Assembly: GCA_034687125.1 (NCBI GenBank) | Contig: JAQGBZ010000247.1 | Coordinates: 30,778 to 94,777 of the forward strand | DNA from: Neelides folsomi | Lineage: Eukaryota; Arthropoda; Collembola; Neelipleona; Neelidae | Direction of reading: 5' to 3' | Length of the DNA stretch: 64,000 bases | Part shown: positions 19,420 to 64,000 of the stretch, piece after piece | How the letters are laid out: each line of letters begins with the position of its first letter | Numbering within the stretch: the first letter of the stretch is position 1 | Notes under the pieces: generated by a model | Seen by the model: the letters and a program-made list of their open reading frames with translations, nothing else | Told to the model about the DNA's origin: nothing | Databases searched by the model: none | Made by a program: the position numbers and the translations under genes

Positions 19420-20081
19420 GGCTGATCTTCGGATATGCTGCACACCATGGTGCACCATGCAAAATCCATGGTTTTTCACCACGCAAAATTCCTCTTCACC
19501 ATGGTGAGTTTAGTGTTAATCTTCCGATTCCCAGTTTTCATTTCTTGGCTCTGATGAAGACGCTCATGGTGCACTAAACTGGAAGATTAACACTAAACTC
19601 ACCATGGTGAAGAGGGATTTTGCATGGTGCACCATTGCACATTCCCAGTTTTTATACGAAATAGTAAATATTAAAATTAAATGTGATAATTTTATGAGCG
19701 AACTTTATTCCTCATTGCATTTTAACAAGTTAAGTTAATTAGAATTAATGTTGCATGCTTTATACACAACGAACAAGGTTTAATTAAATTAAACTTTATG
19801 TTTATATGTGCCCTAAAAGCTGAAATCTGACGTTTTTGAACTCACCATGGTGAAAAGTGGTGAAGTCCATGGTGTCCATGGTGAAAAATGGTGAGATTCA
19901 TGGTGAGCTGGTGCACCATGAGCGTCTTCACCATGGACATGGTGCACCATGGTGAGGTTTTGCTCACCATGGTGAGCCAAGAAATGAAAACTGGGAATCG
20001 GAAGATTAACACTAAACTCACAATGGTGAAGAGGAATTTTGCGTGGTGCACCATGGTGTGCAGCATATCCGAAGATCAGCC
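19420..20081. mobile_element. 662-bp fold-back element rich in CACCATGGTG palindromes
   Basis: The two ends are inverted copies: the left arm at about 19420-19551 begins GGCTGATCTTCGGATATGCT, and the right arm at about 19974-20081 is its reverse complement. Apart from a 23-24 bp insertion in the left arm and a few changes the arms match almost perfectly over about 105 bp. A further inverted copy of part of the arm lies at about 19571-19650. The 10-bp palindrome CACCATGGTG occurs seven times (19443, 19497, 19600, 19843, 19945, 19965, 20049), with further CCATGG variants. No transposase frame and no clear target-site duplication were seen, so it would be a non-autonomous fold-back or MITE-like element. 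Small ATG-starting frames inside it are by-products of the CATGG repeats. Confidence 0.75.
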
Positions 20082-41895: not shown

Positions 41896-43296
41896 TTAAA
41901 ACTTTAAAATATTTATATCTTTATGTTTACATGAACTAAAAACATCCATCAAACCGTATCCAAAGATGTTGTTGGGGAGGGTTGACTCTGAGACTTCTCC
42001 GCAGATTTGGTTGGTTGGTTGAACTCGGGTATTGTCGGTTGAATTGGTGAGGGCATCGTAGATCTGTTTGTATGTGGCTTTCGGGTTCTTTGACCTCAAA
42101 ATAGCGACTGCTCCAGCAACGTGTGGGCAGGCCATTGAAGTTCCGGAGATGGAGTTGTAAGCGGTGTCACTGGTGTGCCATGAAGATCGAACAACTGATC
42201 CTGGGGCGGCAATGTCGGGCTTGATTCTTGATCCTGATCCAGCGGTGGTTGGTCCACGGGATGAGAAGGATGACATGATGATGTTGTTTCCTGATTGGGC
42301 AAGGGATCCGACTCCGATGACCTCGGCGTTGTCTCCTGGGGAGTTGGCTGATCCGCAGGTGGCTCCTTTGTTTCCTTGGGAGAAGACTGGAATGATTTCA
42401 GCAGCTCTCCAGGCTGAGATTGATGAATCGAACCAGGTTTCGCCTTGCCCACCTCCCCATGAGTTGGAACAGACATCGGGAGTTTGGGAACAATTTTTCA
42501 TTGTGGGATCTGTTGACGAATGCGGGCAAATTGCCCATTGAGCGCATTTGATCAAGTCACCCCCAGGGCAACTTCCATTAGGACATCCGAGACAAGCTGA
42601 CCATTTGGCACATTGCGCCACTCCGACATCTTTTCCAACGGCTGTCCCAGCACAATGAGTTCCATGTCCGTTGGAGTCATACGGATCAGTGGTTTTTCCA
42701 CTTGGATCATACCAATTATATCCATCATATAAATTGTCTTTTAAGCATTCGTGAGTTCCTCTGACTCCCGTGTCAATAATAAAAACATGGCTTCCTTCTC
42801 CGCAGCTATTGCATTCACCGTCCCATGCTTGGTTTGCTTTTACGGCAGTAATTCCCCAGGGAGAATCCGCATTTACAATTTCTTCAATTTGGGAATTCTC
42901 GATTGGATCGATGGTGGCGATGGCTTCTTCAGCGATTTCGTAAATGTCGGGAGATTTCATCATCCGCTCGACGAATTTTAAAGACGCTTGGGGAACGTGA
43001 ATGGAATTGGAAATCCAGAAACTTTGGTGTTCGATATTTTCCGCTTTTAGATATTTTTTGGTTGCCATCTGTGTTTTGTAGGCGTGTTTGTTAAGGGCGT
43101 TGTAGACGGCTTCGGATCGATCTGCGCGAGTTTCATATTCGGTGTTCTTGATCTTGTTCAAGATTTCTTCAGTCGATTCGAAATTCAACATTACTGACAA
43201 GGACGAAGTTTTAGAGAGCTTTCGGAGCAGACCGGGTTGAATTGAAGGGTCCGCAAAAACAGAAGAAAATCCCAATAACAAAATTAACAACTTCAT
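41896..43296 (-). CDS. Secreted subtilisin-like protease (S8, proteinase K-like), copy 1
   Basis: One uninterrupted frame of 466 aa. It has a signal peptide (KLLILLLGFSSVFA), an inhibitor-I9-like propeptide to about residue 145 and an S8 domain. The triad is Asp175 (IIDTGVRGTHE), His211 (NGHGTHCAGT) and Ser387 (GTSMACPH), with oxyanion Asn309 (SQGN). All are intact, so a secreted endopeptidase made as a zymogen is expected, perhaps digestive or cuticular. There is no P domain, so it is not a furin. It has no introns, unlike most genes here. From 42103 to 42367 it is identical at every base to copy 2 at 62770-63034, although the propeptides differ strongly. Confidence 0.93.
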   Translation of the reverse strand: MKLLILLLGFSSVFADPSIQPGLLRKLSKTSSLSVMLNFESTEEILNKIKNTEYETRADRSEAVYNALNKHAYKTQMATKKYLKAENIEHQSFWISNSIHVPQASLKFVERMMKSPDIYEIAEEAIATIDPIENSQIEEIVNADSPWGITAVKANQAWDGECNSCGEGSHVFIIDTGVRGTHECLKDNLYDGYNWYDPSGKTTDPYDSNGHGTHCAGTAVGKDVGVAQCAKWSACLGCPNGSCPGGDLIKCAQWAICPHSSTDPTMKNCSQTPDVCSNSWGGGQGETWFDSSISAWRAAEIIPVFSQGNKGATCGSANSPGDNAEVIGVGSLAQSGNNIIMSSFSSRGPTTAGSGSRIKPDIAAPGSVVRSSWHTSDTAYNSISGTSMACPHVAGAVAILRSKNPKATYKQIYDALTNSTDNTRVQPTNQICGEVSESTLPNNIFGYGLMDVFSSCKHKDINILKF

Positions 43297-44213
43297 TTTA
43301 AATAAATATTAAATTGAAATAAAAGATTTATTTTTTGTCAGAATTATAATTATTAAAATACTTTAAAAATCAAGTGAATAATTTTAAACTGAATTTAAAA
43401 GTTTATTAGGTTTTTAAATGAATGGAAATGAATAGAAATTAAGTTTAATATTTAAAGTTTTTTATCTAGTTGTTTTATATTAAATATTTAGTTTTAATTG
43501 TGAGACCAGTGAGGTTTGTTATAAAATGAATCTTTAAATTGGGGACTTTTATACTCATTTTTAATCAAATTTCATTGACACATTTTTCATAAAGGTTAAC
43601 TTTCCATTTCCTTAAAAATATTTTGATAATTGATTTTATTTTTAAAGATGAAACAAGGAATTACCGTTGCATTTGATACAAACGCAAACAATAAATAACA
43701 TTATTTATTGATTATGAAATTAATTTTATATCTTTTTTATCAACTCCATGTGCGTAGATAAAAATGCCCTTCCGATTGCCAATCAATTATTAGAATTATT
43801 ACAATATGATTGATAACATTAACTACTTGTATACCTAGTATACTAATAAAATTATTTTATCCCTAAATACAATCCAGATTTGTATCCAAAGTATCCAAAA
43901 AAAGGAAGAAAGTAAAAATGCATGAAAATTATATGCTTTTGAAAAATAGTCGTTATGTTGAAATCATATTATTGAAATTATATAAAATATATATTTTTTA
44001 TTTAGCCGTTGGCATATTAAAATATTACACTGTATTAAATTTCATTTACATTTAGCAATAAATTATGTGTAAAGTACTTTATACTACCTATACAGATATA
44101 CTTTCTATTTGTTAACTAGGTATATATCTATACTAATATATTCACCATTGATGTAATCGAATTTAAAATAATTAAAATATTATTTGAGTATATTTGATTG
44201 ATCACAAAACACT
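43297..44213. other. Upstream region of subtilisin copy 1
   Basis: AT-rich. It contains the putative subtilisin promoter at 43546-43556 on the minus strand; beyond that lies the 3' side of the CRAL-TRIO gene. No other gene seen. Confidence 0.5.
43546..43556 (-). promoter_or_regulatory. TATA box candidate of subtilisin copy 1
   Basis: Minus-strand GAGTATAAAAG, identical over 11 bases to the TATA region of subtilisin copy 2. It lies about 250 bp before the ATG, which implies a 5' UTR of roughly 220 nt or a small 5' intron. Confidence 0.55.
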
Positions 44214-45733
44214 TCATTTATATCCATATTTGGCAAAGTCTAAAATGTAAATGAAGAATTATTGGATTAATGAAAAATGAATAACTTTCATTATTTAATA
44301 ATGTTTACCTTTGTAATCTTTCTCTCTCTTGAGAATTTCTTTAAAAAATAGTTCATCGATTGCGAGGGGATCGGAGCCGCCGAGAAATTCGGGAAGATTT
44401 TCCTTTGGGACTATTTTGTAAAACTCGTCCAAATTGTGTCCATGAAGAAATAACTATTTAAATGGTAATAGTAGGATTTAGGATATTAAATTAATGATCT
44501 AATCAAGCATTTAGTAAAAACGACTTCAATTTGTCTTACTCTTTTCTTCATCTTTTCTTTCATGAAGGGTTTAATTAGTGCGAAAATGACTTGGAAGAGG
44601 AATGGATTGAATAGCACATGGATTTCTTTATATCGGACCGGAAAACTATCCTGAAAACATTATGCAATCAATTATTAAAACCAATCATTAAGAAATTAAT
44701 TGGAGATGGAAATGAGCAAATGATCAAATGTTAATTAATCTTTAAAACACCTGCAAATAAGCCAGGATCATTTTTGCATGTTTGGGTCTCAAAACTGCAA
44801 CTTGAGAAAAATTGAGTCCCGTGCAGTCCAAAACCCCAGTGATCCCATTCAACTGATGATCAACAAATTCCGAGATTTGTTCAAAAAATATCAAATTGAT
44901 TTTCATGATTTCATCAACAGATTGTTTGGATGGATCCCAATCATCTAAAATTAAAATTAATTTAAATAAAACTATTTTATTAAAACCAAACTTATAACTA
45001 TATAAAAAATATAAATACAAAAAGAAATATATAATTTAAGGCTTTTTAAATACAAATTTCATAAGTGTTTTGATTTTACTCGTTCTTAAATAAAAGACGA
45101 GTCTTCCATTGACATCTCTTGATTTCAAAACTCCCTGGCAATTCGGTTTGATCGATGATGGATAAAAATTTTCGTAAACGCCGGGATATTCAATTTTGGC
45201 GCGATAATACCGTTTGAGCTGTGGGGATATAAAACATTCATTTTGTTAACATAAATAATTATTAATTGTGTTAATATAAACTACTGCCGATTAAATCTAT
45301 GATTATAAATGTATTAATTAGTAAAATAACTTTCGAATATTGAATTTTACACAATCAAATTTAGCATAAAAAATAATAAAAGTTTTACCATTTCAAATGA
45401 TCTTTCACAGTTGCATTTTCTGGCTCGCAAGAATTTGATTAAAAATTGGTCGTTGACGGGGGAGATCAATTTGGGTTCATCTGAATTAAAATAATTATGA
45501 AAAAATTAATTGAATTCATAATTACATTATAATTACAAGATCATTTCATGATCCGTATTAAAAATATTTATTAAATACCAATATGCTTTTATAAAACAAG
45601 AAATATTAAAGTTTACTAAAACATATTCAATAAAAATTTAAAATTTTCCCTCACTTTTGACCATTTTCCTTAATATTGGAAGTTTTTCTTTTTCCTCTTG
45701 AGTGAGGTTGAGGTCAACCTTTAATTGACCCAT
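44214..45733 (-). CDS. CRAL-TRIO lipid-binding protein (alpha-tocopherol transfer protein-like)
   Basis: Seven exons join in phase: 45733-45655, 45480-45389, 45218-45080, 44944-44751, 44650-44540, 44453-44309 and 44239-44214, giving 261 aa. An N-terminal CRAL-TRIO-N helix bundle (LTQEEKEKL, then FLIKFLRARKCNCERSFEM) precedes the SEC14-like lipid pocket. The pocket has typical blocks: GRLVFYLRT, WDPSK, GVLDCTGL, the SFPVRYKEIHVLFNPFLF strand and gate, and NLPEFLGGSDP. Proteins of this kind carry hydrophobic ligands such as tocopherol, retinoids or phosphoinositides through the cytosol; they are numerous in arthropods. The ligand cannot be told from the sequence. Confidence 0.9.
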
Positions 45734-47884
45734 CAGACTTTAAGAAAAAAAGACAATTCCCTATTTAACTTAATTCACTCAATTTTGTTATCAAAATTAA
45801 CTTAAAAATATAACTCTGACTAAATTATTGAGTTTGTATTGGATGTAAATAAAAGATTAAAGTGGGATCTCAACAAAAAAATTTCTTTACAAGTGGAAAC
45901 CTAAATAAACTTCTTATTAATAAGTTAGAGTATTGTGTTATGTATTACATTCATACGTATAAGTTATAAGTTATAGAGATTAACCTTTTTTATTTATTGT
46001 CCTTGAAGCTCATCCACTCTACGATCTGTTCCTATCATTTAACACACAATTCATCAATAAGCTTATACATATAACAAATGCTAATATCCTACACATTGTA
46101 TTATTTTACATAATACTAACTGCATACATTAATATTGCTGGTATATAAAATAGATAAATATTATAAAATTAATTGATAGTAAAGTGATATAACTGATAAC
46201 AATATAATATCCATTATTGTAAAAAGTGTTTCAGTTTCCTATATTTTATATAATAACACATTATCATTATAATTTATCACAAACTAAATACTAATAATGA
46301 AATAATTGCCGTGTTATGTACCTATATACAATATATATATATATATATGAAGTTAACTAACTTTAACATTGTATTGCAAATGATTTATGAACACAGATAC
46401 ATAGTAGATATTAAGTTTTATATAATAGTTTAAAGTCGCAAAAGGGAAATATATTGAATAAATGCAGTGAATGAAAGTTTATTAATTTTAAACCTTGACT
46501 TTACAATTTGTTTATTTTATGTAATGTTTAATGATGGATATAAACGGGTTAATCATTTAAAGATGTTTTGGTTACATAAAAGATTTTTGACACACGCCGT
46601 TTGTGACGTGAGAACTTTTAAATGTTTGGTTCGAAGCCCAAGGATTTGTAAATAAAATCTGTCAACTCGGAGGTTTAAAATCAAATGCCAATTTATAAAT
46701 GTTGATCAAAATGGATTTTTGTTATAGGTCAGTTATATGCTATTTCCATTCTAACAACGAACAAAGATCTTAGTTAAACATCTTAAAGACACTATCTAGG
46801 TATGTTATATTTATAGTATATTTTATGTTACATAGGAAAATATTGGAAGAACCACGCGGGCATTTTTGCGTATTTCCCATGGTTTTTGCATACTTTTGGC
46901 AATTCGTATTTGTATAACTGAGTTAATAGCCCAGTTTTGAAAGCATGGATTGGACGGAGACGTTGAGCCCCATGAGTCACTCCGCATCTTAATGTTTATA
47001 AATATTTGGAACCAAATGCGCCACTTCAATCTCATCGTGAAAAACCGGGTTATAAAAGGAACCAACTCAAACCCCAAATCTTTATTTCTTCACAAATACT
47101 CATTTAAATAGCAATTGCTCTTGGGCGGGAAAGTTTTTTTAAACTTCGATTAAGCGTTATTGAAATTCATTATAATTTACATATTGAAAAACTGTTATAA
47201 AATCAATTAAATCAAATTGCATTGTGACAATTAATTAAAAAATTATCAAACGGAAATAATTATTTAATTCCTGTATTTAAAAAACGTTACATTGAAGGTG
47301 AGTAAATTTTTATTATATAAATACTATAACTATGAACATAATATTTATATTATGTTATATATTTAATTATAATTAAACTGTAAACATTAGAAATTGTCAC
47401 CGCGTTAAAAATTGATGTGGCAATGTTTTGTTAAACTTTCCATTAAATGTTAAATAATGACAATGATGAATTTTGAAAACCGTTTGACCGCAATAATAGA
47501 AACTCAACCCAAAACATCTTCATTCACTTTCATTCTTTTTTCACTCTCACAATAATAATCATCTTATCAATTTATCAGAATCATTATCAATTTATATTCA
47601 CTCACTCCAAAGTCATTCAATTTATTAAAATGTTATTGTTTATCTTTATTTACAAATAATAATAACAGAATATTAGAATTGATTAAAAACTGCGATTTAG
47701 CAGTAATGTGTAAATTTACTTAATAGATAAAATAATTCAATTAATTTGTTATTTAGTAAGCATTGATAATAATCACATAAATATAAACATTTGTAATCAA
47801 AGTTTAAGTCGTCAATTAATAGTTTAAAATTGGTTATTGAATAAATTGAATATTAAATGTTGTTAATTATCCCAGTGAATTAAA
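45734..47884. other. Divergent spacer between CRAL-TRIO and LRRC20-like genes
   Basis: Very AT-rich, with a (TA)n run near 46,330-46,348. A GC-richer island at 46,840-47,080 carries TTATAAAAGG near 47,051 on the plus strand, a possible promoter for the following gene. No gene was recognised. Confidence 0.45.
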
Positions 47885-49886
47885 ATGCGTCCTTTGAGTG
47901 AGATCGTTCCTCCTGAAGCTGCCGAAGCAGAATCATCAATTGCTGAATATAACGCGGCAATGATGTGCACAAGACTTGCAGGGCGTGCAATTATCAAAGT
48001 TGTGGAAAGATGCAATAATGCAATTGAAAATAACCATTTGGGTAAATAAAACATTTTTATTTACCCATAATTAAATAATTTTGTATTTTAATAATATCCA
48101 AATGTACAAATGTAGTGTAAATAGGGATTTTTTGTAATTGTAAAAATATCTGTATATAAGACATTTTTATGTAAATTTGCAAATCCTTATTGCAAATCCA
48201 CATTGAGGAATAAAATGGAGTTAGGAACAAATATGGAAAGTTGTATAGCCAGATGTCTATAAGATGTTAAAAGAGACAGTTGGGTGGGAATGGCCTCAGG
48301 AGTCACACGTGTGATTCATCGGTGTGAAAACGCAGTTGAAACTCAAGTCTTAGGTCATCAATTTAAATCCCTTTTATTCCCAGTTAAAATAATTGTAATT
48401 AAGAGATTTTAAGCAGTTTTTAACAATTTATAATAATTATTAATTTGTTTTCATTTGCAGACCTTTCCGAATGTCAGCTGATGCAAATCCCCGACGCCGT
48501 TTTCCATCTCATGCGAAACACAGAATTGAAGAAGGCGGATTTCTCGTCCAATGTCATTTCAAAACTCCCGTCAAAATTATCCTCGAAATTCGCGTCCCTC
48601 AAAGGTGGGAAATTTGAATTTTACGCAGTTTTTCATTTACGCATTAAAAACTATTCTATAAACTAAACCTATAAATATAAAGATGTTTTTATGAATAGAA
48701 AACCTACGCAGAGAGATGTAAGAAAGAGATAGGAAAATGTAAAGGATTTTATAAATACATTCAAGAATGTCTGTAAGGTTTTAAATAAAAATTGGCTCAG
48801 GACCAAAATCGCCATTTGGGCTCATTTTTGCGTTGAAGGAGACGAAAATAACTTGGGGATTTCCAACCTCAGTTTTGGCCAAAACACCAACTTTAAAATA
48901 TGCGCATATATAAAGCATGTAAATATTAAAACGCTTATTATTAAAATAAACACAGTTGTTGTAATACAAAGATGAATTTATAAATTAATGCAGAAATTAT
49001 TAATTTAATTTACAATTAAAAATCTTACATAAATCTCTTTATACCTATAGTTTAAAAAAGTGTATAAGAATGTCAGGTGTTGAATGTTTAATTTATGAGC
49101 TGAATGAAAAGGTCTGAGAAGAGTCGTTCCCTTTTTCTCTCTTCTTTCCAAATCCCCGAGACAGAAACTTAAAACGGAATTCTACTTGGCTCAATTCCAA
49201 TACAGATTTCGTTTCAAGTCTTTTGAACTCAAAACTCATTTAATCATTTTAATTACCAAATGTTTTAATCGACCAAATCATGTTTAATTATCCAAATAAA
49301 TCACAAAATCCAGAAAAAATATTTAGATTTATATAATATTAGATTTAGCAAACTTAACTTTATTTAAGTTTACTATAAAATAGTTAGTTAAAATAAATTA
49401 ATAAATTGATAATAATTATTTGATTTTAGAGCTCAATTTGTCTATGAACCGTTTGAGTAAATTGCCCGAAGAATTTGGAGATTTTCCTCAACTCACTTTC
49501 TTGAATTTGTCTTCAAATGGCTTCGTCTCCTTGCCGTCTTTCATCTTCAATCTCAAAAGCCTTGAATATCTCTACTTGGAGAAAAATCTACTTTCTGGTA
49601 GAAGTTCATTTTTAAGAAATTGTTAAAGTAAATCTGAACTTTAATTGTAATTAAGGTTAATTAAAGTTAATTAATAATTTAATACTAGTTGTATCTTTGT
49701 TTTATAGATATCGACATTAAACGTTTGAGCGAACTTCGTTCTCTCAAAGTTCTCAACGTTCGGGAAAATCCTTTGAATCCAAATTGTATGGCCGCACTTG
49801 AATCACTTGGGGCCAATCAAAAGATCACCGTTCTTTTCACACCTGATCCTTTCACATCTTGGGAAGAGGAATTCTCAAACGCCTAA
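47885..49886 (+). CDS. LRRC20-like leucine-rich repeat protein, two alternative first exons
   Basis: The shared exons are 48461-48604, 49430-49597 and 49708-49886. Exon 1A (47885-48041) and exon 1B (48290-48353) both end in phase 1 and give 215 or 184 aa; 184 aa equals human LRRC20. Leucine-rich repeats run through the protein: LSECQLMQIPDAVF, then LNLSMNRLSKLPEEF, LNLSSNGFVSLPSFI, LEYLYLEKNLLS and LKVLNVRENPLNP. The human protein has the same helix-then-DLAEC start and the same INLRFNPLN end. It is a small LRR scaffold with no enzyme domain; its cell role is not established. The peptides of exons 1A and 1B resemble each other (VERCNNAIE against IHRCENAVE). The 1B donor (GTCATC) is weaker than the 1A donor (GTAAAT). 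Confidence 0.85.
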
Positions 49887-50660
49887 AATTTATAACATTT
49901 TTATTATAATTTAGATTAATCAATTCTTATCCGCATAAGAATCAACGATTTTTTTACAATAAACTTTACGAACTTTTATTATTACAATGTCATTTCATAA
50001 CTTACCTTTTTAATAACCGACAGAATTTACCCTTTAATATGATCAATTGTGTATAGTATATGATAAATATCTGTAGATTTAAAATACTTATATCAATTTT
50101 CATATCGCCGTGTTAATAAAATTACTATTGGATTAATTAATTAAAGTATTTATTATGCATGTAACTATATTTTATTCCAGCCCGGAAAGGACGTGAGTTT
50201 GAACGAACAGCTAAAATATTATTGAAAATGCTCATGATGGGGCTTACATGGTAACTTGCACAAGAGTTTCCTGGGCCCAACATATGCATTTTCAATATTA
50301 TTTTAGCGGTTCGTCCAAACTCACGTCCTTTCCGGGCTGGAATAAAGAATAAACTAATGTATTATAAGTATTATATGAATATATTACGGATGTAAAAATG
50401 AGCAGAAATTATATTATTGGTGAATTTTACTGACGAATAAATTGTAAATTATTTAAAAAGGAATCGAAACTGATTTTTAAATTTGGAATAGAGATCAATC
50501 AAATAATAAACTAAGAAAATGTCATTTTGAAAGTTTTAATTTTTTCATAAATTATTTACAATGAAGTACATTGATTTATACAAGTTTTAATTTTTAATTT
50601 GTCTAATGCTCATTTTGTTTCAATTATTTTAAAGACTAAAGAATGATAGAAAAGTTGAGA
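49887..50660. other. Convergent spacer holding a fold-back element
   Basis: AT-rich. Apart from the MITE-like element at 50171-50346 nothing was recognised. Confidence 0.5.
50171..50346. mobile_element. 176-bp MITE-like element with long inverted ends
   Basis: The outer ends TTTATTCCAGCCCGGAAAGG and its inverted copy extend to arms of about 60 bp with only a few mismatches. They surround a GC-richer centre (CATGATGGGGCTTACATGG). No coding capacity and no clear target duplication. Confidence 0.8.
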
Positions 50661-52196
50661 TCATCTTGGAAATTTTGTTGCGCATTTCTTGAATGCTTCG
50701 AACGTGCTGAAATTCGTCTTCATTTCCTTATGATTAGGAAATTCTGTTTTGAGCCATAAATAAAAGTTTTCTAATTCCACCGGAGTTATCATCCCTTTCA
50801 TTATATTTAAACGGGGAATGAAAAAAGATAAATCAAAATCTGTAATTTTCCTTGTAGAAAAATTCCAATCGTCGTCGCTTAAATCCTCAAACGAATCAAT
50901 CCCCAAATGTATTTCTTTTCCTCCTTTCCCCCATGTAATTTCCTCATTGGCGATGACTTCAAATTTCTTCAAATTCTTCATTCCATTTCCCATCCATACA
51001 AAAAATGGATAGGCGCAAACAGTGTAACGAGAAAATTGTTCCTTTGGATTTTTCAGGAGTGGAAAGGCCTGAAAAATCCAATCCAAATTGTTCAAGATTT
51101 GGCGCCATTGTTTCCACAAAATCCTTGAAAGTCCAAAAGATTGTTGATGGCGATCCTTCGATTGGGCTGGTCCAAAGCTGATCAACAATGAAACTGAACT
51201 TTTTCAAATTCCCAAATGATCCAATTTCTTCCCTATTTAACTGTTGATCATTTCCTAATTTCGGGAGTGCGGTGATCGTCAAATCTTCTAAAGAAATGAA
51301 CTTTCCAACAATTTTATTGAAGATTTCATTGAAAACTGAATCTCTATTTGGATAGAGATGTAAATGTAAGCTGAGGATTTTAACTTGGTCGAATCCAGAA
51401 GGAACATTTGCATTGAAATGGTTTTCAATATTTTGTTGGAAATTTTCATTAAGTCCTATGTTTTGAACATTGAATATTGTTGCTTGTCCAATATGTAATT
51501 CCTCCAGTGTGTTCACAATTGGAGTTTGGCGAATGAAGTTCCAGCGATTGGCCCTCTCGGATCTATTTGTCCTATTAAAAATAAAATAATTTAAAGGAAA
51601 TTCCATTCATCGTGTTAAAATAATATATGGATGATAAATACATAAGTTATAATATTAATAATTTATTATTACATTTGATTTGTTTGATTCAATGTGAATT
51701 TATATTATGTGAATAATATATAAAAAATAACTCACAGCTTGATATCAAATGAAAGTTTTTTGATTTTTAAATTACGATAATCGTCCCATTGGCCATTGGG
51801 AAATTCTGATTCTTCCGGATACCAATTAAACGCATCAAAAGCTTTATGGTCATTAAACGACAAAACTTGTACTTGCTTGGCAAAACTTGAAATTGCTTTC
51901 AAAACTTCCGGAATAAGAATATGCAATAATCCGAATCTATCTTCGCATTGGGTTACATTCACTTCCACAAGATTCGGCGCCAGTTTCATGAGCTCTACTG
52001 ACAATTTCCCAATCGAAGGGTTGTTTTGGAGAATGGCGATGAAGCTTATTTCCCTCAATGAAACTAATTCATGCCCTCCATACAAACGTTCTCGTTGCTC
52101 TTCTGAACTAAACAATGGACGAATTGAAGAGTAGTCAGTGAAGTTTAAAATGACCAGATATGTGAATGATCTAAAAAAGATCTTGGCAAAATATTC
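50661..52196 (-). CDS. Leucine-rich protein of unknown function, 5' end missing
   Basis: I do not recognise the family. Coding segments on the minus strand: about 52196 (or 52170) to 51736, then 51571-51118, then 51068-50661, about 430 aa. Irregular leucine-rich motifs recur, such as LVSLREISFIAIL, LAPNLVEVNV, LEELHIG, LEDLTITALPKL and MKNLKKFEVI. They suggest an F-box/LRR-like substrate adaptor, but no F-box was seen. Only about 320 bp separate it from the next gene upstream, and no start ATG was found there. Between the last two segments the frame shifts by one. A 49-nt intron (51069-51117, GTGGAA...TTTTCAG) restores it in phase 0; otherwise the gene is frameshifted. Confidence 0.6.
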
Positions 52197-52513
52197 CTGA
52201 TCGGAATATATTCAACACTTAATGTTAATTTATAAGATGATTAAAGTATAAACTAAATGTTTTGAACACGAGATTTGACTAATGGGATAAATTTACATTC
52301 ACTTAATGAATTAATAAAAAAACATTAAAAAATATTACTTGACTACAATTTTATATATCTGTAATTTCTAATAAAAGTTAATGATAGTTAATTAAATGAA
52401 TTTTAAAGTACATTATGAATTATGATGAACTTAACCCTTTAATAACGAACATGACCAATTAGTGTTAATATGACGAAAGCAACGGTTTGTTTAATTTCAA
52501 TATTAATTTATTT
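52197..52513. other. Short spacer, no start exon found
   Basis: AT-rich DNA between the leucine-rich protein and the RWD-RING gene. The missing first exon of the former was looked for here and not found. Confidence 0.4.
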
Positions 52514-53946
52514 TCATGATAAAAACTCAGCAACTTCTTGGATTTCTCTTTTTCGTGCTTCTTGATGTGCCCAACGAGATTCGCTCAATTCCGGACTCAC
52601 TTTGTACTTCTCGTGAAAGATTCGCTTTCCGCAAACTCCACACTTTTTACCACCTGGACAATGGAATTATAAAAATTATACATTTCATATAAATATAATT
52701 TTAAAATTAAAAAACTTTAAATTGCTATTTTAATTAATTCACCTTCAAATGGAGGTTTTTTCATAAATTCAAGTAAACATTTAAGATGGTAAAAATGGCC
52801 GCAGAGGATTCGCTCAACATGGAAACTTCCAGATTCGTTGGATTCGGCTTCATCAGGATTCTAATGTTTAATTCAACATTTAACATTCAAAATATAATTT
52901 TTCTAAATTTTAATTATGGTTTAAGTTTTATTTAATAGTATATTTTAAATATGTATCATTTTTGAAATAAATTACAGTCGGCAAAGTTAATTGGTTACAA
53001 TGTGGGCATTTCTGACTCGGCAACCCGTGAATTTCATTAATTAAAAATGTAGCGACGGGTTTGAGAGATTCTTGAACTTTAAATTCCTCTGTGTCTTTTT
53101 TATTTTTGTTAAGTGGCGGCTCAACACATTTACGAGCAACTTCTTTAGCGTGGGCTGTTAAGGTCCGAATCAAACTTGGAGGGAAATTGGAAGAATTGGA
53201 ACAAATGCCAACTTGAGTTTCGGGATAATCAAATGGAACGAAAATGGAGCAATTTAAGTAATAAAGTTCTTCTTGCAATTTCAATTCAATTGTTGAACTT
53301 TTCTGATTTAATTTAATTTCCTCCTCGTTGAATTTCTCTTTGAGATCGAAGATTTCAGAAGCACAGCAGCATAGAGGATATTTTGTTATAAAATTATGGA
53401 GAAATTCGATGGCGAAAATTATATCAGGTTTATCTGTAATTAAAAAACAATCCATATTAGTTAATTTAGTTAAGCTAATTATAAGTATTTATGTAATTTA
53501 ATTATAATTGAATTTAAAGCAATTTAAATAATTTGATATTTATGCAATTAATAAAATACCATGAATGTTATTTGATAATTCGTTTTCACTTAAACTTTGG
53601 AGTTTGCTTAAGAAATCTTGACTTAATGTTTTTGATTTCAACTCAATTAAAATCCTTTGAGAAGGGAATTGTTGTGGGAAATAAAAATTAGCTGTCAAAC
53701 ATTTCACTTTGGACTTACTGTAAAAATAAAACATGATTAGTTAGAAATTACCTTTCTATTTATTAACAACGATTTTCCTTTAATACAATTATTGACTATT
53801 AATATAATTATTGTTTATTACGTGATTTTTATCCGAACTAGTTCTTTGGTGTTGGTAATTAATTGGAAATCTTCCCGTGGTTTGGAAAAATAATCTTTAA
53901 TTAAAATGATGACTTGTTCTTTGGTAAGATCAGTCGTCATGTCCAT
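52514..53946 (-). CDS. RWD-domain plus RING-type zinc finger protein (putative E3 ligase)
   Basis: Five exons join in phase: 53946-53822, 53717-53560, 53433-52976, 52860-52743 and 52653-52514, giving 332 aa. Residues about 15-95 resemble an RWD domain (VKCLTANFYFPQQFPSQRIL, then LKSKTLSQDFLSKLQSL). RWD domains often mediate E2 or partner binding. A helical middle part contains three adjacent Cys (LCCCASE). The C-terminal third carries RING-like ligands: CPHC, then ILCGHFYHLKCL, then CGVCG, followed by a charged helix (HQEARKREIQEVAEFL). The long loop between first and second ligand pairs is unusual. A ubiquitin-ligase role is inferred from this layout; no orthologue was identified with certainty. 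Confidence 0.75.
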
Positions 53947-55083
53947 TAGTCTTTTAAATACTAATTTATCCAAATATTAAACAAAGTAACAATAAGTCTA
54001 AAACTTCATGTCATTTATCAGAAAATCAAAATGAAATAAAGAATATGTGAGATTTGTATTTGAAGCAAGGAGATTGGCAAAGTTTAGACACAAGGCAAAA
54101 TATCATTTTTGAGAAAATTGCATTAATAATTACAATTAATTAAATATATTATTTTTATTGTCGTTACATGTTGTAAGTTGTAACATAATATACTTATTTT
54201 AAAAGAAGTGTCCTTATGGTTAATAATATTGCATTAATACATCATTTCCTATATCCATTTATAACACTTTGTACTATATACTATATCAAGCATATTCATA
54301 TAATCGGTTAACGTCTACTCGGTTTATATGGAACTGCACAAAGTCATATTAAATTAAGTTTATATTAAATTAAAAATAGATTCTAGTAATATAAAATCTA
54401 TTTTTACTTTAATACAAACTATATGAATTTTGTGCAGCGCTATAATAACCAAGGATATCTTGATTTGAATATTCCTAGTCCTAGTATACAGACCTATATA
54501 TAATATATATGTTATATATATATTTATATGTCTGCATATACTGGTTATTATTCTTATAATTAATAATCATGGTTAGTTAATTGGACATTATTCCTTTAAT
54601 TAAATATCACATTATGAAATATACATAATACCATATATATACATAATATACCATATAAATGAAATATATATAATATATATGGAATTAAAATAAGTAATGA
54701 ATTGAGTATTTGATGAGAAACTGATTTATTGGCTTTTGATGTCTTTGATGAAATGAGTTTTGTCTGAGAATGCGAATTTGATTTATTCACAACTTTCAAG
54801 ACTTTCAACCTCCCACCGTTTGATCAATCACTCAATGCGGATTTTCTCGCTTTTTACATCAATTTCACTTCCCATTTCAACTTACACTTTCATTCAGTGT
54901 CAATTCACATTCAACTTCATTATAATAAAATCAATAACTTTAATATTAAAATTATAACAATAATATAATTAATTGAAGCTTTAATTTAGACCCTTTGTTT
55001 AAAATATAGTTTAATTGAAAATTCATTAAACTTATTATTTTTTTACTATTTACCATCTAAGCAAAGTTTTGTGAAAAACTCCA
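53947..55083. other. Divergent spacer between RWD-RING and TRPV genes
   Basis: AT-rich with long TA-palindromic runs near 54,495-54,540 and 54,600-54,680, and a fold-back element at about 54321-54450. The stretch 54,745-54,905 is GC-richer and probably promoter or 5' UTR of the channel gene. Confidence 0.45.
54321..54450. mobile_element. 130-bp fold-back (MITE-like) element
   Basis: The ends GGTT...TATA...CTGCACAAA...TCATAT at 54321-54349 and their inverted copy at about 54421-54450 surround an inner hairpin (AAAATAGATT / AATCTATTTT). TA-containing ends suggest a Tc1/mariner-derived MITE, but the arms are imperfect. Confidence 0.6.
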
Positions 55084-58000
55084 ATGGGAAACGCGGAATC
55101 CAATGTGACAAGCGGAGTGAAAAAACAAGCTGGTGGAGTTTCCGAACCACTTTACTCCCTTGTTGACCTGAAAGGTCCATTATTTATTCATAAGATTCAA
55201 TATTTTAATTCTTGGAGTTTATACTCTATATAATTTTTTAATTTATAGGCGGGGGAATTTTAATTGATTTGTGTAAGCAAGCCACAACAACGAAAAATTA
55301 TGCAGCACTTGACGAAGCAATAAGAGGGAGATTGGAACCGTTTCTTTATAATAATGGAAAAGGTCAACGAATGCACGTGTCAAAATTAGTTCTGGAGCGG
55401 AATAAAGATCGGCCAAAGAGCAAACAATTACTAAGCAACGAAGAAGATTTTGACACTTATGTTGAACCCATTGACCCAGGTCAACATTAAATTTAAATAA
55501 AAATATTTTGTTAATTGAGATATTAATATTTAAATGTAGATCCAACAATGTATCGTGATGTTTGCTGGGATTTGTCCAAACGCGGCTCTGTTGGGGAATC
55601 TTGTTTACATCTTTGTTTATTAAGCGCTTCGAGCGTCCACGCTGAACTTGCCAAGCGACTCATTCGATTTTATCCAAAACTCATCAACGACGTTTACATG
55701 AGCGATGAATATTACGGAGAAAATGTTCTACACATGGCAATTGTTAATGAAGATCCTTCAATGGTTAAATTCCTATTGGACAACAATGTGAATTACATGC
55801 AGCGTTGCTATGGGGCTTTTATGAGCCCTGAAGATCAAAAAGGATCAAGGACAGATTCATTTTTTCACGAATGGGTCGACTCGAATTTAAATACTGATTA
55901 TGATGGTTATGTTTATTGGGGAGAATATCCAGCTTCTTTTGCAGCTTGTTTAGAACAAGAAGAATGTTACAGACTAATTCTTGCGAAAGGGGCTGATCCC
56001 GATGCGCAAGATACGAATGGAAATACTGTTTTGCATATTCTTGTTATACACAATAAACAAGTAAAATTAATATTACCTAAGTAATTACTTACAAGTAATA
56101 TTATTTTATATAGTGTATGACTAATTTTTGCAAAAATAGTATTTTAATATTTTTAATTGTATTTTAGAATATGTTTGACATGGCTTATGAACTTGGTGCT
56201 AAATCAAAAGTTTTTAATAAGCTCGGATTGACCCCGATGACCCTTGCAGCTAAATTGCCCAGAAAAGAATTATTCTTCCATATCATGAATATCGAACGAG
56301 AAATTTATTGGCAAATTGGATCGATCGTCTGCGCCGCTTATCCGCTCGCATCCTTCGACACCATCGACACGGTCAATGGAGGAATTCTAAAGGAATCCGC
56401 ACTCAATTTAATCGTCTTTGGTGAAAAAGTGGAACATTTGGATTTGCTCGAAGGACCAGTTTTAGATTTATTGCACGCGAAATGGAACAAATTTGTCAAA
56501 CTTGAATTTTACCGCCAATTCATCTGCTTCACTTTTTTCTTCCTTTTGTCAACTTCAGTTTTTGTCCGTCGTCCAATACACAAAATGGGAAAAAATCCGT
56601 TCCTGCCTTCGGTCAATACAAGTTTGAATGGAACGGATCTTTTCGGATTGGACACTGGAAATTTCACCCGGCTTTTTTTAAACGATTCGGATTATGTTTT
56701 AATGTTCAATGGCACAACGCTAAATGGAACGATGACAAATAATTCTAAAAATGTGACGGAAAAGAAACCTTTCAGAGCGACGTTTAAATTGCCATTTACC
56801 AATAAAAGTTATTCGTTTAGTATGGGAAAAGCTGGACAATGTTTTGTTGAACTAAATAATGCCAGTAGTTGGAGTTTGGTAATTTCTGAATGTTTTCTTG
56901 TTCTGGGAGCTTTGTGTTATTTGCTTGGAGCGGCAAGGGAATGTTCCTTTCTTGGACCTTCAATGTTCTTTGAAAATTTGGTATTTTAATAATTAAAATA
57001 CGATTTCACACTTTACATTAATTAATTAAAAGTAAAGAACCATTATAATTAAATATTGATTTTTGATTTAGGCAACAGTTCCATCTAGAGTTATTTTTCT
57101 TACATCGTGCATTCTTGTTCACGTGATGGTCATTCTTCGAATGTTTTGTTTGGAAGAAGCCGAAGATTTGGTTTCAATCGTTGTGATGATAACAACCGCG
57201 CCATTTTTCCTATTCTTCTGTAGAGGGTAAATTCAAAATTAATTAATGAAATTTTAATTTCAATTTTCTTATTAATATTTATTTATTTAATCAAATAGAT
57301 TCAAAACGGTTGGTCCATTTGTGGTCATGATTTACCGAATGATTATTGGAGATCTCCTTCGTTTCGTCACAATTTACCTTGTGTTTGTTATGGGATTTTC
57401 CCAGGCCTTTTACATCATTTTCCTCTCATTCTCAAAAGCCGATACGGAAAATCCTTTGAGTTCTCCACCAGAATCAGTAATTGCAATGTTCATGATGTCT
57501 CTTTCATCCTTTGACTCTGTTTTCGAAAATTTCGATTCAACTGCTCATCCATGGGCGGGAAAAGTAAATTTTAAAATTTCTAATTAAATCTGACAATATT
57601 ACAATTCTCACAAAGTTGAAAATTGTATTGATGGATATGTCGCTTGTTTAGACTCTCTTTGTATTGTATATGATCCTCGTCGCCATCTTGTTAATTAACA
57701 TGCTTATCGCCATGATGGGAAACACTTACACCAAAATTGCTGAAACTAAAAATGAATGGCAACGACAAGTAAAGAAAAAATAAAACTTTAAAATTACAAT
57801 AGAAAATAGAAAATTATAAAATTTTAAATTGATAATTTAAATGGCGGAAATTTTAAATTTTGTTGTAGTGGGCTCGAATTGTATTGGTTGTTGAACGTGG
57901 AGTTGCTCCAGCGGTTCGCCATGCCAAACAAGGACTCTATTGCGACACAACTGGTGACAACCAACGTGTGTTTGTATTGCAAAAATCTCTTTCTCAAGAG

Positions 58001-58138
58001 GAACAAGAAGAAATGCAGGAATTGGTGGATGTCAAACGTTATCATTTGAGGGCTGTGGAAAGGAGGAAAGCAAAAATTGCAGCAGCTGAAGAAGCAGCCG
58101 CTGCTGAAATAAGAGAAAAAGAAGAGAAATTGAAATAA
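55084..58138 (+). CDS. nan: TRPV-family cation channel, Nanchung-like
   Basis: Eight exons join in phase: 55084-55174, 55249-55479, 55540-56060, 56168-56980, 57072-57226, 57299-57563, 57652-57768 and 57869-58138, giving 820 aa. Drosophila Nanchung is about 830 aa and its partner Inactive much longer. The start MGNAESNV looks myristoylation-competent. Ankyrin repeats fill about 110-330 ([42 protein letters not shown]). Six membrane segments follow, with a large glycosylated loop between S1 and S2 (several N-x-T/S). The S5-pore-S6 part is [21 protein letters not shown], then [13 protein letters not shown], then [20 protein letters not shown] Glu/Ala/Lys-rich coil ends the protein. In insects Nan and Iav form the hearing and proprioception channel of chordotonal cilia. 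The Nan assignment over Iav rests on length and N-terminus. Confidence 0.9.
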
Positions 58139-58915
58139 AAATTATTTAACCAATTTCAATATTAGTGATACATTAATAACATTAAAAATGAGGAAATTTA
58201 AATGACATACTAAATACAACGATAAAATAAAATTTAATTAAAGTATAAAATGTTATTTGTGATTTTCATTTTGGTGTACATGAATTTTGTATTGTAATTT
58301 GTATATAAAGGTTTCAATTTATTCATAGTTTATAAAGTTACAATATTTTGCTTATAATTGAGTATTTAAAGTATTACTCTTTATAACATGTGATTTATAA
58401 TTACTCATATAGAGTTGAATTATTAACAATATTAAATTATTATACATAAATAATACATAGTCTCGTATTTGTAAATGTACTTATATGAAAAATAGAATTC
58501 TCAGATATTCTAAAGATGAAAATAAGTTAGTATAAATAAAATAAATTTAAGATAAAGTATAATATGTTGGATGTATTGTATTATACTAGAGTACAGATAT
58601 ATGATATAAATATACATTTATGTAATTCACAATCCTAACCCAAGTTTAAAAAACACATTGAAGAGGATTAAAGGGAAAATAAGATAAATCCAAATGGGAA
58701 AATCCTTTTCTTTACTTATTTCTTATTACATCTTTTCTTAACCAAAAATATCAACACTTGTTCTCATTCCTGACAAAATAATTATCAATTGATTTTTAAT
58801 TCCATTCATTCCTTTTGGAAATTATAATAATTTCTATATTGGATCAACAGAATCAAATTTACTCACACAAAACTCTTTATTTATATTATCCGTGCAAATT
58901 ATTTAAATAATCTAA
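58139..58915. other. Spacer between TRPV and ZAD genes, no gene seen
   Basis: Very AT-rich; likely 3' UTR of the channel followed by the promoter of the next gene. Confidence 0.5.
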
Positions 58916-59902
58916 ATGAGTTCAATTTGTGTTTTTTGTTGTGAAACTGAGAATTTTATTCCGAAGCTCTCCGATGAAAGATTTTTCAACACAATCATTT
59001 GGACATTGGATTTAAATGAGGGAGCTTTTGAAGATTCCACGTTTTTGCCATTCTGCACCGACTGCATCAACAGCGTGAAAAGAATGCACGAACTCAACAA
59101 GAAAATCAAAGAGATGAAGGCAGAAAGGAAAAAGGTTGAAAAATACATTCGGGACACGACGTGGAAAAGCTTTAAAAACTCAAATGAGAAAAAGCTTCCG
59201 AGTAAAACTACCAAACTGAGAAAGAAAATGTTTAAAGGTATTTAAAATCATATTACTTTTACATTATATAAATATTTAATTTAAATATTTTATAATTTCA
59301 TAAGTTAAATTTAAAGTGAAAATATTTCGTAGCTTTGAAAGAATTTTACGAAGAAGGCGAAGAGATTTTAAGTGAATTGGAAGAAATTACTCCACCAAAA
59401 ATTCGTAAAAAATCATTGAAATCCGTTCCAAAACCATTACCAGAAAAACCGAAAAAGGTTAAACCAAAAAGGGCGAGTTCGGGTAAACTTAATGTCATTC
59501 GAGTTCCTCCGTTCAAGGTCAAAGAAGAACCTGCAGATTTTATTGATCTTGTCTCGGACTTTGAAGAAACTTACGATAACCAACTTGAAGGTTAATTACA
59601 TAATTGATAATTTATAAGTATTTACAAATTAAGCTTTTCTTTTTTTCTTTTATGCATTTTCACAAATTGTTAATTTATTAAGAGTATTAAATCATTTTAT
59701 TGTTTTCATGTTAGTTTATCATGAATCTGGAAGCAAAAAACCAAAGCGAGAAGAAAATGAATCAAGTGAGAATAAAATGGATGGAGATAAACTTGAAATC
59801 ATTTACGAACAAAACCACACCACTGTGGACATTGAAAAAGACTGGTCAAAATTCAAGTGGAAAAATATAACGACTAAGAAATTTGAATTTACATTTAGTT
59901 AA
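58916..59902 (+). CDS. ZAD-domain protein, zinc fingers lost or alternatively spliced
   Basis: Three exons, 58916-59237, 59333-59590 and 59715-59902, give 255 aa. The N-terminus is a zinc-finger-associated domain (ZAD): CVFCC about residue 5, then a hydrophobic middle and FCTDCINSVKRMHELNKKIKE, four Zn-binding Cys in two CxxC-like pairs. ZADs dimerise arthropod C2H2 transcription factors. A Lys/Pro/Glu-rich linker follows, ending in a stop. No C2H2 finger is encoded before the stop. About 60 bp later finger-like coding sequence appears, and a phase-2 donor in exon 3 (TTCAA/GTGGAA) could join it, but that segment is broken. The protein could act as a finger-less ZAD dimerisation partner. Confidence 0.75.
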
Positions 59903-59968
59903 TACTAAAGTTAATTAGTTAATCATTAAATTAATCGAATTGTTTTAAGTTGAACTTTATGTTTAAGG

Positions 59969-60235
59969 AAACTTTTATCCTGTCAAATTTGCAATATCAA
60001 ATTTATAAACAAAAAAGAGAAATTGGCCCATTTTGAAAATGATTATAAGAATGAGATGGGATTTTTCTTCTGTCCCAAATGCCCATATTCAAATGACAGT
60101 ATTTAGTCCGCCATTTTATCACCCACTTGGAGGAAAAGGAAAATGAATGCCCTTTATGCCCGCGAAAATTAAAAATATGCTCAACTTGGGCAGTCATATA
60201 AGAAGTCACAAGATCCGCCAAACTTTGTAAATTGT
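59969..60235 (+). pseudogene. Decayed C2H2 zinc-finger tail of the ZAD gene
   Basis: An acceptor TTTAAG at about 59,968 opens a frame LLSCQICNIKFINKKEKLAHF (first C2H2 finger) and FFCPKCPYSNDSI, then TAG. A shifted frame continues RHFITHLEEKENECPLCPR and a third frame gives NLGSHIRSHKIRQTL. Thus at least one stop and two frame changes interrupt what was a three-finger exon. Phase fits the cryptic donor in ZAD exon 3. Confidence 0.7.
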
Positions 60236-61786
60236 TTAAATTAATCGAAGTGTAAAATAGAGCATTTAATTAAATGTTATTGTAGGAATTAATAATGTTC
60301 GCATTTATAAAACTTTTACTTTACTACTCAACATTGTAAATAAGATTTTTTATTAATATTTTAAACAATTATTTTTATTGGTTACTTTTATGTATATTTG
60401 ATGTGAATTAATGGATTAATAAAGATATTTTTATAAATGAGAATTAGTGAGAGGAGTTTGGATTTGACTGGCGTGATAATCCTCGGTACTCTGATTACAA
60501 ATTTGGGTTTTTACACCTTTCAATCAACTCAGGGACAATTTAATCACAAGGTTTAATGGATATTAATAATTGAATTCTAATATCTTTATCGTGTTAATTT
60601 TTTGATCCACACCTCACGGGGAATTTTATTTTCCTCTTTATTAACTCACGATGAATAATCCAGAATCAACCATTTAATCCCTAACAATTTTTAAATTCCC
60701 CAACTTAATCTGTCTAACTATTATTTAATATCATTCTAAAATTAATTTTTATTATTTCAGAATTTCATTAAAATATTGATTGTACTTGTTAAATCTTAGA
60801 TGAGAAAATAATCTCAATACATTTGTATAAAAGCTCCAATGAAAAAATTGACCAGTTTTAAATGCTAACAATAAGACTTCATCGATTAAAATAATTAAAA
60901 CGGCCTAATTTTAAATTGAGAGCAATTACGATAAAACTTACAATTAAGTTGAAGTTGAGGTTATGATTTATAAACTTTATTGAGCATTAGCATTTGAGGG
61001 TCTCAAGTATTAACATGTTTGATAAAAATTGATAAAAATCGACAAAAAGGTAATCCACTTCTAAATTTACATCAGATGTAATGTAATACGTAGACTTGCT
61101 CTCAATGAAATTCAATTTAAAATCTTGATTTTATATAATAAAGTTTATGCTATTTTCAAGTATCCTGGGATACTCAAGATAATAAATTAATAAATAATGT
61201 TTATTGTAACATATATCGTAAATTTATACAAGTACTTGCTTATGTACGATTGATTGTACGATCATAACAAAAAACTTGAAAACAAAAAAGGCCAATCAAT
61301 TTTTCCAATAGTTAAAGTGGAGGTGTTAAAAGAGTTTGAAATTAAAAAATTATGAAGTATTGACAAGAAAAAACAATGTTTAATTAATGATTAAATGGTG
61401 TCAAAAGATATGAAATAATGTAAATATCATTATTGTTACCATAGGACATTTTGATAAAAGCGATTATCTTATATTGATATTCATGATCGCGTGCATTAAA
61501 CAAATGAAAAATTAAATGTACAAACAAAACAATTGAGATTCAATTTGTCCCCAATGACAAAAGATAAACTTAAAATATAGAACTATTGGAGCAACATATA
61601 TAAGTAGGATCTGAAAAAGTACAAAATGATTAAACTTGAAGATAAAGACAAAATCATATAAATTATTATGTTATATCAAAATTTAATAAAAAATATCAAA
61701 ATAAATTAATGTACTTTTCATTATCTTGAATCTATCTTCTTTATGATATTAAATATTATCCAAATGTAAAACCATTATATGAGTTT
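60236..61786. other. Spacer before subtilisin copy 2, no gene seen
   Basis: AT-rich, with no recognised exon or RNA gene. Regulatory DNA of the highly biased subtilisin gene may lie here. Confidence 0.45.
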
Positions 61787-61797
61787 GAGTATAAAAG
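61787..61797 (+). promoter_or_regulatory. TATA box of subtilisin copy 2
   Basis: GAGTATAAAAG lies 53 bp before the ATG. A CACTCAGCCAGTGCAGT stretch about 35-45 bp downstream contains an initiator-like CTCAG(C/T). This gives a short 5' UTR of about 20 nt, typical of a strongly expressed secreted enzyme. The same 11 bases occur upstream of copy 1. Confidence 0.75.
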
Positions 61798-61849
61798 CGA
61801 ATAAAATTTTTTGAATTTTTACACTTGACACTCAGCCAGTGCAGTAAAC

Positions 61850-63220
61850 ATGAAGTTCCTCATTGTCCTTCTGGGCCTTAGCGCCGCCTACGCTTCCCAA
61901 GTGGAGCCCGAGCTCGTGAAGAAGCTTATGAACGGCCCAGCTTCAGTTATGATCAACTTTGGATCAACTGAACAAGTCCTTGCTGAAATCAACAACCAAG
62001 TCTTTGTCAGCTCCGGAGCCCGAGCTCAAGCCGTTTACGATGCTTTGAACGCCCACGCTGCCAAATCACAAAATTCAGTCCAAAAGCAATTGAAGAAAGA
62101 CGGAGTCAAATTCCAGTCCTTCTGGATCTCCAACGAAATCCACATCCAGGAAGCCACGCTCGCCGTCGTTTCCCGAATTGCTGACTTCCCCGAGGTCGCC
62201 ACCATCAACGAGGAGAAGATCGGATCAATCGAGTTCGAGAACCACAATATTGTCGAACATGGACGTGACACGATCTACGCCGAATGGGGAGTTGAACACA
62301 GTCACGGAGAAGCCGCCTGCGCCGCCGGAGCCTGCGGAGCCGGAGTCCGAGTTTGCGTCATCGACACCGGAATCCGAGGAACTCATGAAGCCCTCCGAGG
62401 AAAGAACCACGCTGGACATCATTGGTTTGATCCACAATTGAGAACCGCCACTCCAGGAGACACCAACGGACACGGAACTCACTGCACCGGAACCATCTTG
62501 GGAGAGGGAGGAATCGGAATGGCCCCACGTGCCCACTGGCAAGGATGTGTCGGATGTCCCAATGGAAGTTGCCCACAAGCCGCCTTGACCGGATGCGCCC
62601 AATTCGCTGTCTGCCCACATGCCGCTGACGGTTCAGGAGCCGACTGCAACCAACACGCCCATCTCTGCTCCAACTCATGGGGAGGTGGACAAGGCCAAAC
62701 CTGGTACAATCCATCAATCTCAGCCTGGAGAGCCGCTGGAATCACTCCAGTCTTCGCCCAAGGAAACTCAGGAGCCACCTGCGGATCAGCCAACTCCCCA
62801 GGAGACAACGCCGAGGTCATCGGAGTCGGATCCCTTGCCCAATCAGGAAACAACATCATCATGTCATCCTTCTCATCCCGTGGACCAACCACCGCTGGAT
62901 CAGGATCAAGAATCAAGCCCGACATTGCCGCCCCAGGATCAGTTGTTCGATCTTCATGGCACACCAGTGACACCGCTTACAACTCCATCTCCGGAACTTC
63001 AATGGCCTGCCCACACGTTGCTGGAGCAGTCGCTCTTTTGAGGTCAAAGAACATGAACGCCTCATACGCCCAGATCTACGCTGCCCTCACCAATTCAGCC
63101 GACAAGACCCGAGTTCAACCAACCAACCAAAACTGCGGAGGAGTCTCAGAGTCAACCTTCCCCAACAACAACGTTGGACACGGTATGCTCCACGCTCACC
63201 GCGCACACGAAACCTTCTAA
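61850..63220 (+). CDS. Secreted subtilisin-like protease (S8, proteinase K-like), copy 2
   Basis: One intronless frame of 456 aa. A signal peptide (KFLIVLLGLSAAYA) precedes an I9-like propeptide to about residue 140 and the S8 domain. The triad is Asp172 (VIDTGIRGTHE), His208 (NGHGTHCTGT) and Ser384 (GTSMACPH), with oxyanion Asn306. Extra cysteines (CAAGACGAG, CVGCPNGSCP) suggest disulfides as in secreted enzymes. Codon use is strikingly C- and GGA/GCC-biased against the AT-rich surroundings, so the gene is probably very highly expressed, for instance in gut. AATAAA at 63308-63313 is a likely polyadenylation signal. Copy 1 lies 18.5 kb away in the opposite orientation and shares an identical 265-bp tract. 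Confidence 0.95.
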   Translation: MKFLIVLLGLSAAYASQVEPELVKKLMNGPASVMINFGSTEQVLAEINNQVFVSSGARAQAVYDALNAHAAKSQNSVQKQLKKDGVKFQSFWISNEIHIQEATLAVVSRIADFPEVATINEEKIGSIEFENHNIVEHGRDTIYAEWGVEHSHGEAACAAGACGAGVRVCVIDTGIRGTHEALRGKNHAGHHWFDPQLRTATPGDTNGHGTHCTGTILGEGGIGMAPRAHWQGCVGCPNGSCPQAALTGCAQFAVCPHAADGSGADCNQHAHLCSNSWGGGQGQTWYNPSISAWRAAGITPVFAQGNSGATCGSANSPGDNAEVIGVGSLAQSGNNIIMSSFSSRGPTTAGSGSRIKPDIAAPGSVVRSSWHTSDTAYNSISGTSMACPHVAGAVALLRSKNMNASYAQIYAALTNSADKTRVQPTNQNCGGVSESTFPNNNVGHGMLHAHRAHETF

Positions 63221-63892: not shown

Positions 63893-64000
63893 ACTTATTA
63901 TGTCACTTATACTGACTTATAGAATCGGCAGAATCCATTTATAATTGGATTCTGCCGACATGAATTGTAATTCATGATTCTATAAGTTGACATAATAAGT
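63893..64000. mobile_element. Nested fold-back element at the window edge
   Basis: Outer arms ACTTATTATGTCA (63893-63905) and its inverted copy (63988-64000) enclose a second pair (ACTTATAGAATC / GATTCTATAAGT) and an inner hairpin (CGGCAGAATCCA / TGGATTCTGCCG). It ends exactly at the window border and may continue. MITE-like. Confidence 0.6.

Follow-up and report, generated by a model that had tools for sequence, protein, structure and literature searches.

How did two old and strongly diverged subtilisin-like protease genes, lying in opposite orientations on one contig of the collembolan Neelides folsomi, come to share a tract of 265 identical bases? The window analysed here, a stretch of 64,000 nucleotides (positions 30,778 to 94,777 of contig JAQGBZ010000247.1, GenBank assembly GCA_034687125.1), is the right end of that contig (C247, 94777 bp) in an assembly of 75.1 Mb and 840 contigs, and all coordinates below are those of the window. 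The first gene, g1 (41896..43296, minus strand, 466 amino acids), and the second, g2 (61850..63220, plus strand, 456 amino acids), were each recognised from a single open reading frame together with a profile match, and are intact paralogues arranged divergently, with their 5' ends towards each other. An earlier note on this DNA had proposed gene conversion between the inverted copies. Silent sites, tree topology and codon usage bear this proposal out, and we regard interlocus gene conversion between g1 and g2 as the best explanation of the sequence evidence, with a probability of roughly 0.78. The 265-bp boundaries that the note had drawn did not hold, being amino-acid differences.

The two genes and their identical core

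On the profile evidence, both genes are members of the Peptidase_S8 (subtilase) family. The Peptidase_S8 match is full-length or nearly so in each (g1, E 1.2e-44 and 153.3 bits; g2, E 3.9e-42 and 145 bits; cut-off 21.8 bits), and the alignment has D175, H211, N309 and S387 (g1 numbering) in both. DTG, HGTH and GTSMA, which we take to be the catalytic motifs of subtilisin-like proteases, were found in the g1 translation, and the class is presumably MEROPS S8, proteinase K-like. An AlphaFold model of g1 (mean predicted local distance difference test score, pLDDT, 81.9; predicted template modelling score, pTM, 0.87) retrieved pro-subtilisins and subtilisins among the best 50 fold matches listed. 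Family domain, catalytic motifs and the predicted subtilisin/pro-subtilisin fold thus resemble those of other subtilases, and compared with these the enzyme appears unremarkable apart from its gene-specific residues.

The identical core lies at 42103..42367 in g1 (minus strand), where it includes GTSMA, and at 62770..63034 in g2 (plus strand), and the two agree at 265/265 bases, as had been claimed. In the g1 model, the catalytic Ser motif sits in this core, where a long helix (residues 386-403) begins. The match ends at a mismatch on either side and extends by 0 bases. Both edges are amino-acid differences, AAA/TCA at the 5' side and ATT/CTT at the 3' side. Beside the core, identity in 50-bp bins is 0.90 and 0.88 upstream and 0.86 (a bin that is part core), 0.92 and 0.94 downstream, before falling below 0.5, in line with the roughly 90% noted earlier. 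The strong divergence of the 5' halves was likewise found, with protein identity of 40.5% (64/158) in the signal/propeptide part and 51% (55/108) in the first part of the catalytic domain.

The core, however, is only about half of what has been homogenised (~450-530 bp). An inverted-repeat search returned a 530-bp block of 94% identity (41950..42479, minus strand, in g1; 62658..63187, plus strand, in g2), the longest of the three inverted pairs listed in the window, with arms 20178 nt apart. Within it, a stretch without any silent difference at amino-acid-identical codons spans 41953..42402 on the minus strand in g1 (codons 299-448) and 62735..63184 on the plus strand in g2. Because this silent-clean run covers g1 codons 299-448, the silent boundary encloses ~450-530 bp and does not coincide with the 265-bp edges. 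The abrupt change in silent divergence that had been described is therefore real but sits at the edges of the wider block. Below, the 265-bp tract is called the core and the remainder of the block its 5' and 3' flanks.

Silent-site divergence

Silent differences were counted only at codons that encode the same amino acid in g1 and g2 and have synonymous alternatives. Upstream of the block 53 of 113 such codons differ, as against 3/24 in the 5' flank, 0/85 in the core and 0/36 in the 3' flank, or 3 of 145 amino-acid-identical codons over the block as a whole. The longest silent-identical run comprises 129 amino-acid-identical codons, a length reached in 0/2000 permutations. It is the only clear silent run among the 78 pairs formed by 13 paralogues; the next lowest permutation value, 0.0125, is not notable given 78 tests. 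Concerted evolution across the family was considered and set aside, since only 1/78 pairs shows a clear silent tract. Strong purifying selection on the catalytic region with no conversion at all could appeal to the presence of the catalytic Ser loop in this region, but it is refuted by the silent sites, which are identical too, and by the paralogue on contig C173, which over its whole length differs silently from g2 at 13-23 codons in each complete set of 30 with an identical amino acid; we consider this account extremely improbable.

A second pair, the paralogues C760 and C660b, has few silent differences at codons 42-107 (5/60), compared with 8-13/30 in other full batches (permutation value 0.0575), and is possibly a weaker second case.

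The form of the proposed exchange is suggested by what was left in place. Homologous sequence lies on both sides of the block, and each gene has kept its own 5' half and 3' tail, which has the look of a non-reciprocal patch more than of an insertion or inversion. The tails differ in guanine-plus-cytosine content at third codon positions (GC3), at 0.27 in g1 and 0.73 in g2 over 11 aligned codons only; each tail resembles the rest of its gene more closely, which gives no sign of swapped halves. On this tail composition, again over 11 codons, inversion through the repeat or a swap of 3' ends is disfavoured. A third copy or haplotig was also sought, and a DNA search of the assembly gave only g1, g2 and a 68% paralogue.

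Probable direction of transfer

Tree topology changes at the block. Upstream of it (136 columns), g2 pairs with C173 with an ultrafast bootstrap of 98, and a clade of g1 and g2 is rejected by the approximately unbiased (AU) test (p 0.0115). The tree of the block, built on 197 columns, places g1 with g2 (ultrafast bootstrap 91), the g1 branch being 0.15 long and that of g2 near 0.

C173 itself is g2's closest paralogue upstream of the block (66% protein identity). Its contig end lies within the subtilisin gene, which lacks its 5' part, and the gene could be the next tandem copy across an assembly gap.

Codon usage in the block is g2-like in both genes, which fits a transfer from g2 to g1. The g1 block codons have a log likelihood (logL) of -143.5 under the usage of g2 outside the block, compared with -196.0 under that of g1 outside the block, and held-out windows scored as expected in 7/8 cases (4/4 g1 windows negative, 3/4 g2 windows positive). 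The copy-2 codon style reported earlier for copy 1 is thus seen, the test having covered the whole block and not the 265 bp alone. On this sequence evidence g2 is most likely the donor and g1 the recipient. Three results limit the support for conversion from g2 into g1. In the block, a clade of g2 and C173 is not rejected at 5% (AU p 0.055); the remaining held-out g2 window, of 9 codons, scores g1-like; and C173 polarises 14 of the 22 amino-acid differences as 10 derived in g1 and 4 in g2, leaving 8 without polarity, a lean towards the same direction that is not significant (p 0.18).

The codon style that allows this comparison belongs to an unusually GC-rich gene. The GC content of g2 is 0.55 and its GC3 0.57, in a window of ~31% GC, and its GC3 tops that of the 13 paralogues compared, the other 12 lying at 0.29-0.45. 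This GC-richness is perhaps the codon bias of a highly expressed gene. A recent bacterial source of the C-rich codons is unsupported, the bacterial matches reaching ~35% protein identity at best among the best 80 listed, although this is not decisive.

Amino-acid changes in the flanks

A point missed by the earlier note is that the ~90% identical flanks differ almost solely at amino-acid-changing sites. Over the 84 flank codons, differences fall 13/10/5 at the three codon positions and amount to 2.5 synonymous and 25.5 nonsynonymous changes, compared with 119/86/148 by codon position in the part upstream of the block. Nei-Gojobori counts of synonymous (s) and nonsynonymous (n) changes are s 2, n 7 for the 5' flank; s 0, n 2 for the core, both of these in the edge codon AAA/TCA; and s 0.5, n 16.5 for the 3' flank. 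In the g1 model, the changed residues lie near helices 290-298 and 409-418 as well as in the C-terminal portion.

We compared these counts with a neutral, mutation-only simulation of 2000 runs under each of six combinations of base composition with transition bias. With the flanks alone, 2.5 or fewer silent changes occurred in 0.5-1.35% of the runs, and in 0-0.05% if the core shares the age of the flanks (core amino-acid changes being removed). In a codon model with core and flanks of one age, the flank omega is 8.1 (p 1.9e-4 against omega 1), and the 3' flank taken by itself gives an unbounded omega (p 0.010). Adaptive change in the g1 flanks after conversion is, on these counts, likely but not proven. 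Less favourable to it are the borderline estimate for the flanks alone (omega 3.4, p 0.052) and the Fisher tests of flank nonsynonymous against flank synonymous changes, which gave 0.05 and 0.15. All tests on the block are, in addition, somewhat biased, since identity was what drew attention to it.

The same pattern could arise if conversion of the 3' half recurred under the limits of selection, tracts that erase functional g1 differences being removed so that amino-acid differences persist as islands. The flank differences, nearly all nonsynonymous, and the core edges, nonsynonymous too, would fit such a process, and a comparable one is described for the red/green opsins, ~24 kb apart (PMC3924837). 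The tracts would, however, have to be very short, since silent positions only a few codons away from differing amino acids are identical, and we consider this account rather doubtful.

A probable conversion: one event or two

Conversion of the whole block with later substitution in g1 would leave the core to be accounted for. Codons 277-447 contain 22 amino-acid differences, and none of these falls within codons 311-397 (edge codon 310 being counted as flank), an outcome with a chance of 1.5e-6 by family variability and 5e-7 by the C173-g2 differences. When differences were placed over codons 277-447 with weighting by family variability, a difference-free run as long as the 88 codons observed was obtained in 0/20000 placements (maximum 69). 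This lack of core change, beyond what family variability predicts, makes a second and later conversion of the core likely, though not proven.

The competing account is a single conversion of the ~530-bp block, after which the core was kept by purifying selection and gained no silent changes by chance while the flanks were positively selected. The catalytic Ser does lie in the core, and no distinction between core and flanks emerges when silent sites are taken by themselves (Fisher p 0.09-0.20), a result that counts against two events. In the codon models the logL is -774.4 with two ages and -776.2 with one age and two omegas, which puts the single-age model just 1.8 log units behind with an equal number of parameters. 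Against a single event stands the variability of the core elsewhere in the family. Among 10 other paralogues mean pairwise identity is 0.48 in the core, 0.49 in the 5' flank and 0.33 in the 3' flank, and 28 positions in the core and 30 in the flanks distinguish C173 from g2; with variability in the core close to that in the 5' flank, zero changes in it are unexpected. We judge a single conversion to be plausible, at somewhat less than an even chance, and the sequence data slightly favour two events.

In the sequence of events that we propose, ectopic (interlocus) conversion would have overwritten the g1 sequence surrounding the catalytic Ser with ~0.45-0.53 kb copied from g2. Most of the substitutions that g1 then gained towards the two ends of the block would have altered amino acids, and a second, later conversion probably re-homogenised the middle, at least the 265-bp core. 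A more speculative and, in our assessment, unlikely extension is a cycle of resetting and re-diversification, in which g2 repeatedly converts, and so renews, the catalytic half of g1, and selection each time quickly rebuilds the g1-specific residues around the active-site core. If this were true, conversion would supply a secreted protease with adaptive variation, beyond mere homogenising.

The assembly as a possible source of the pattern

An assembly or polishing artefact, in which a consensus of both copies replaced the core of one, has to be weighed against conversion. Exact repeats are where assemblers fail, a distance of 780 bp separates g2 from the end of the contig, and the evidence comes from one assembled genome, where collapse or cross-polishing could matter. 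Other features speak against an artefact. The wider block is also without silent divergence yet keeps 22 amino-acid differences over codons 277-447, a consensus error would not sort differences by codon position, the 3' tails retain their own compositions, and only two copies of the block were found by the DNA search of the assembly. We therefore consider an artefact improbable, and conversion remains the preferred reading.

At its very end, 63893-64000, the contig carries a nested inverted repeat, with 13-base arms at 63893-63905/63988-64000 and 63925-63937/63946-63958, which by eye resembles a miniature inverted-repeat transposable element (MITE). This repeat may explain why the assembly stops just past g2.

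Comparison with known systems

The process is well supported and ordinary, a new instance of a known one with an informative twist. Hsp70 and Amylase pairs keep high identity over whole genes, unlike g1 and g2, which are old (~40-51% protein identity outside the block) and patched over a bit more than a third of the gene. These Drosophila inverted duplicates undergo gene conversion (PMC3924832), and like them g1 and g2 are linked inverted paralogues with homogenised silent sites in the coding sequence. The same source indicates that conversion combined with differential positive selection lowers synonymous divergence (dS) more than nonsynonymous divergence (dN). In opsins, selection preserves paralogue differences despite conversion (PMC3924837), and the present pair resembles the red/green opsins in combining probable conversion with regions of persisting amino-acid differences (PMC3924837 and PMC3213168). 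In contrast to the opsins, g1 and g2 have near-zero silent divergence beside many amino-acid differences. Among the literature matches listed, no title described gene conversion between such subtilisin paralogues, and nothing noted from PMC3068966, PMC8476164 and PMC2588116 alters the conclusion.

The locus offers a clean example of silent and amino-acid sites placing tract boundaries differently. Raw identity alone would halve the tract and mistake amino-acid changes for its edges. Given confirmation from reads and a sister species, the pair could serve to test directly whether adaptive change follows when diverged proteases undergo conversion.

Other paralogues and features

Some members of the family elsewhere in the genome depart from the catalytic residues. 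In the alignment, the C43 paralogue, a long open frame, shows A in place of Asp, Q in place of His, V in place of the oxyanion Asn and A in place of Ser, and the C196 paralogue, likewise a long open frame, has F at the His position. By these replacements, both are possible inactive pseudo-proteases. A subtilisin-like match at C45:136826-138292 has 28 stop codons inside and may be a degenerate copy or else a gene whose introns were included in the match.

Elsewhere in the window, a profile search also found a prominin match, as would fit an animal, and a 75-nt inverted repeat at 19477-20048 is 99% complementary, with arms 422 nt apart. The mitochondrial contig of the genome is 15157 bp long and carries tRNA-Leu(taa) between COI and COII, which we take to be the ancestral pancrustacean gene order.
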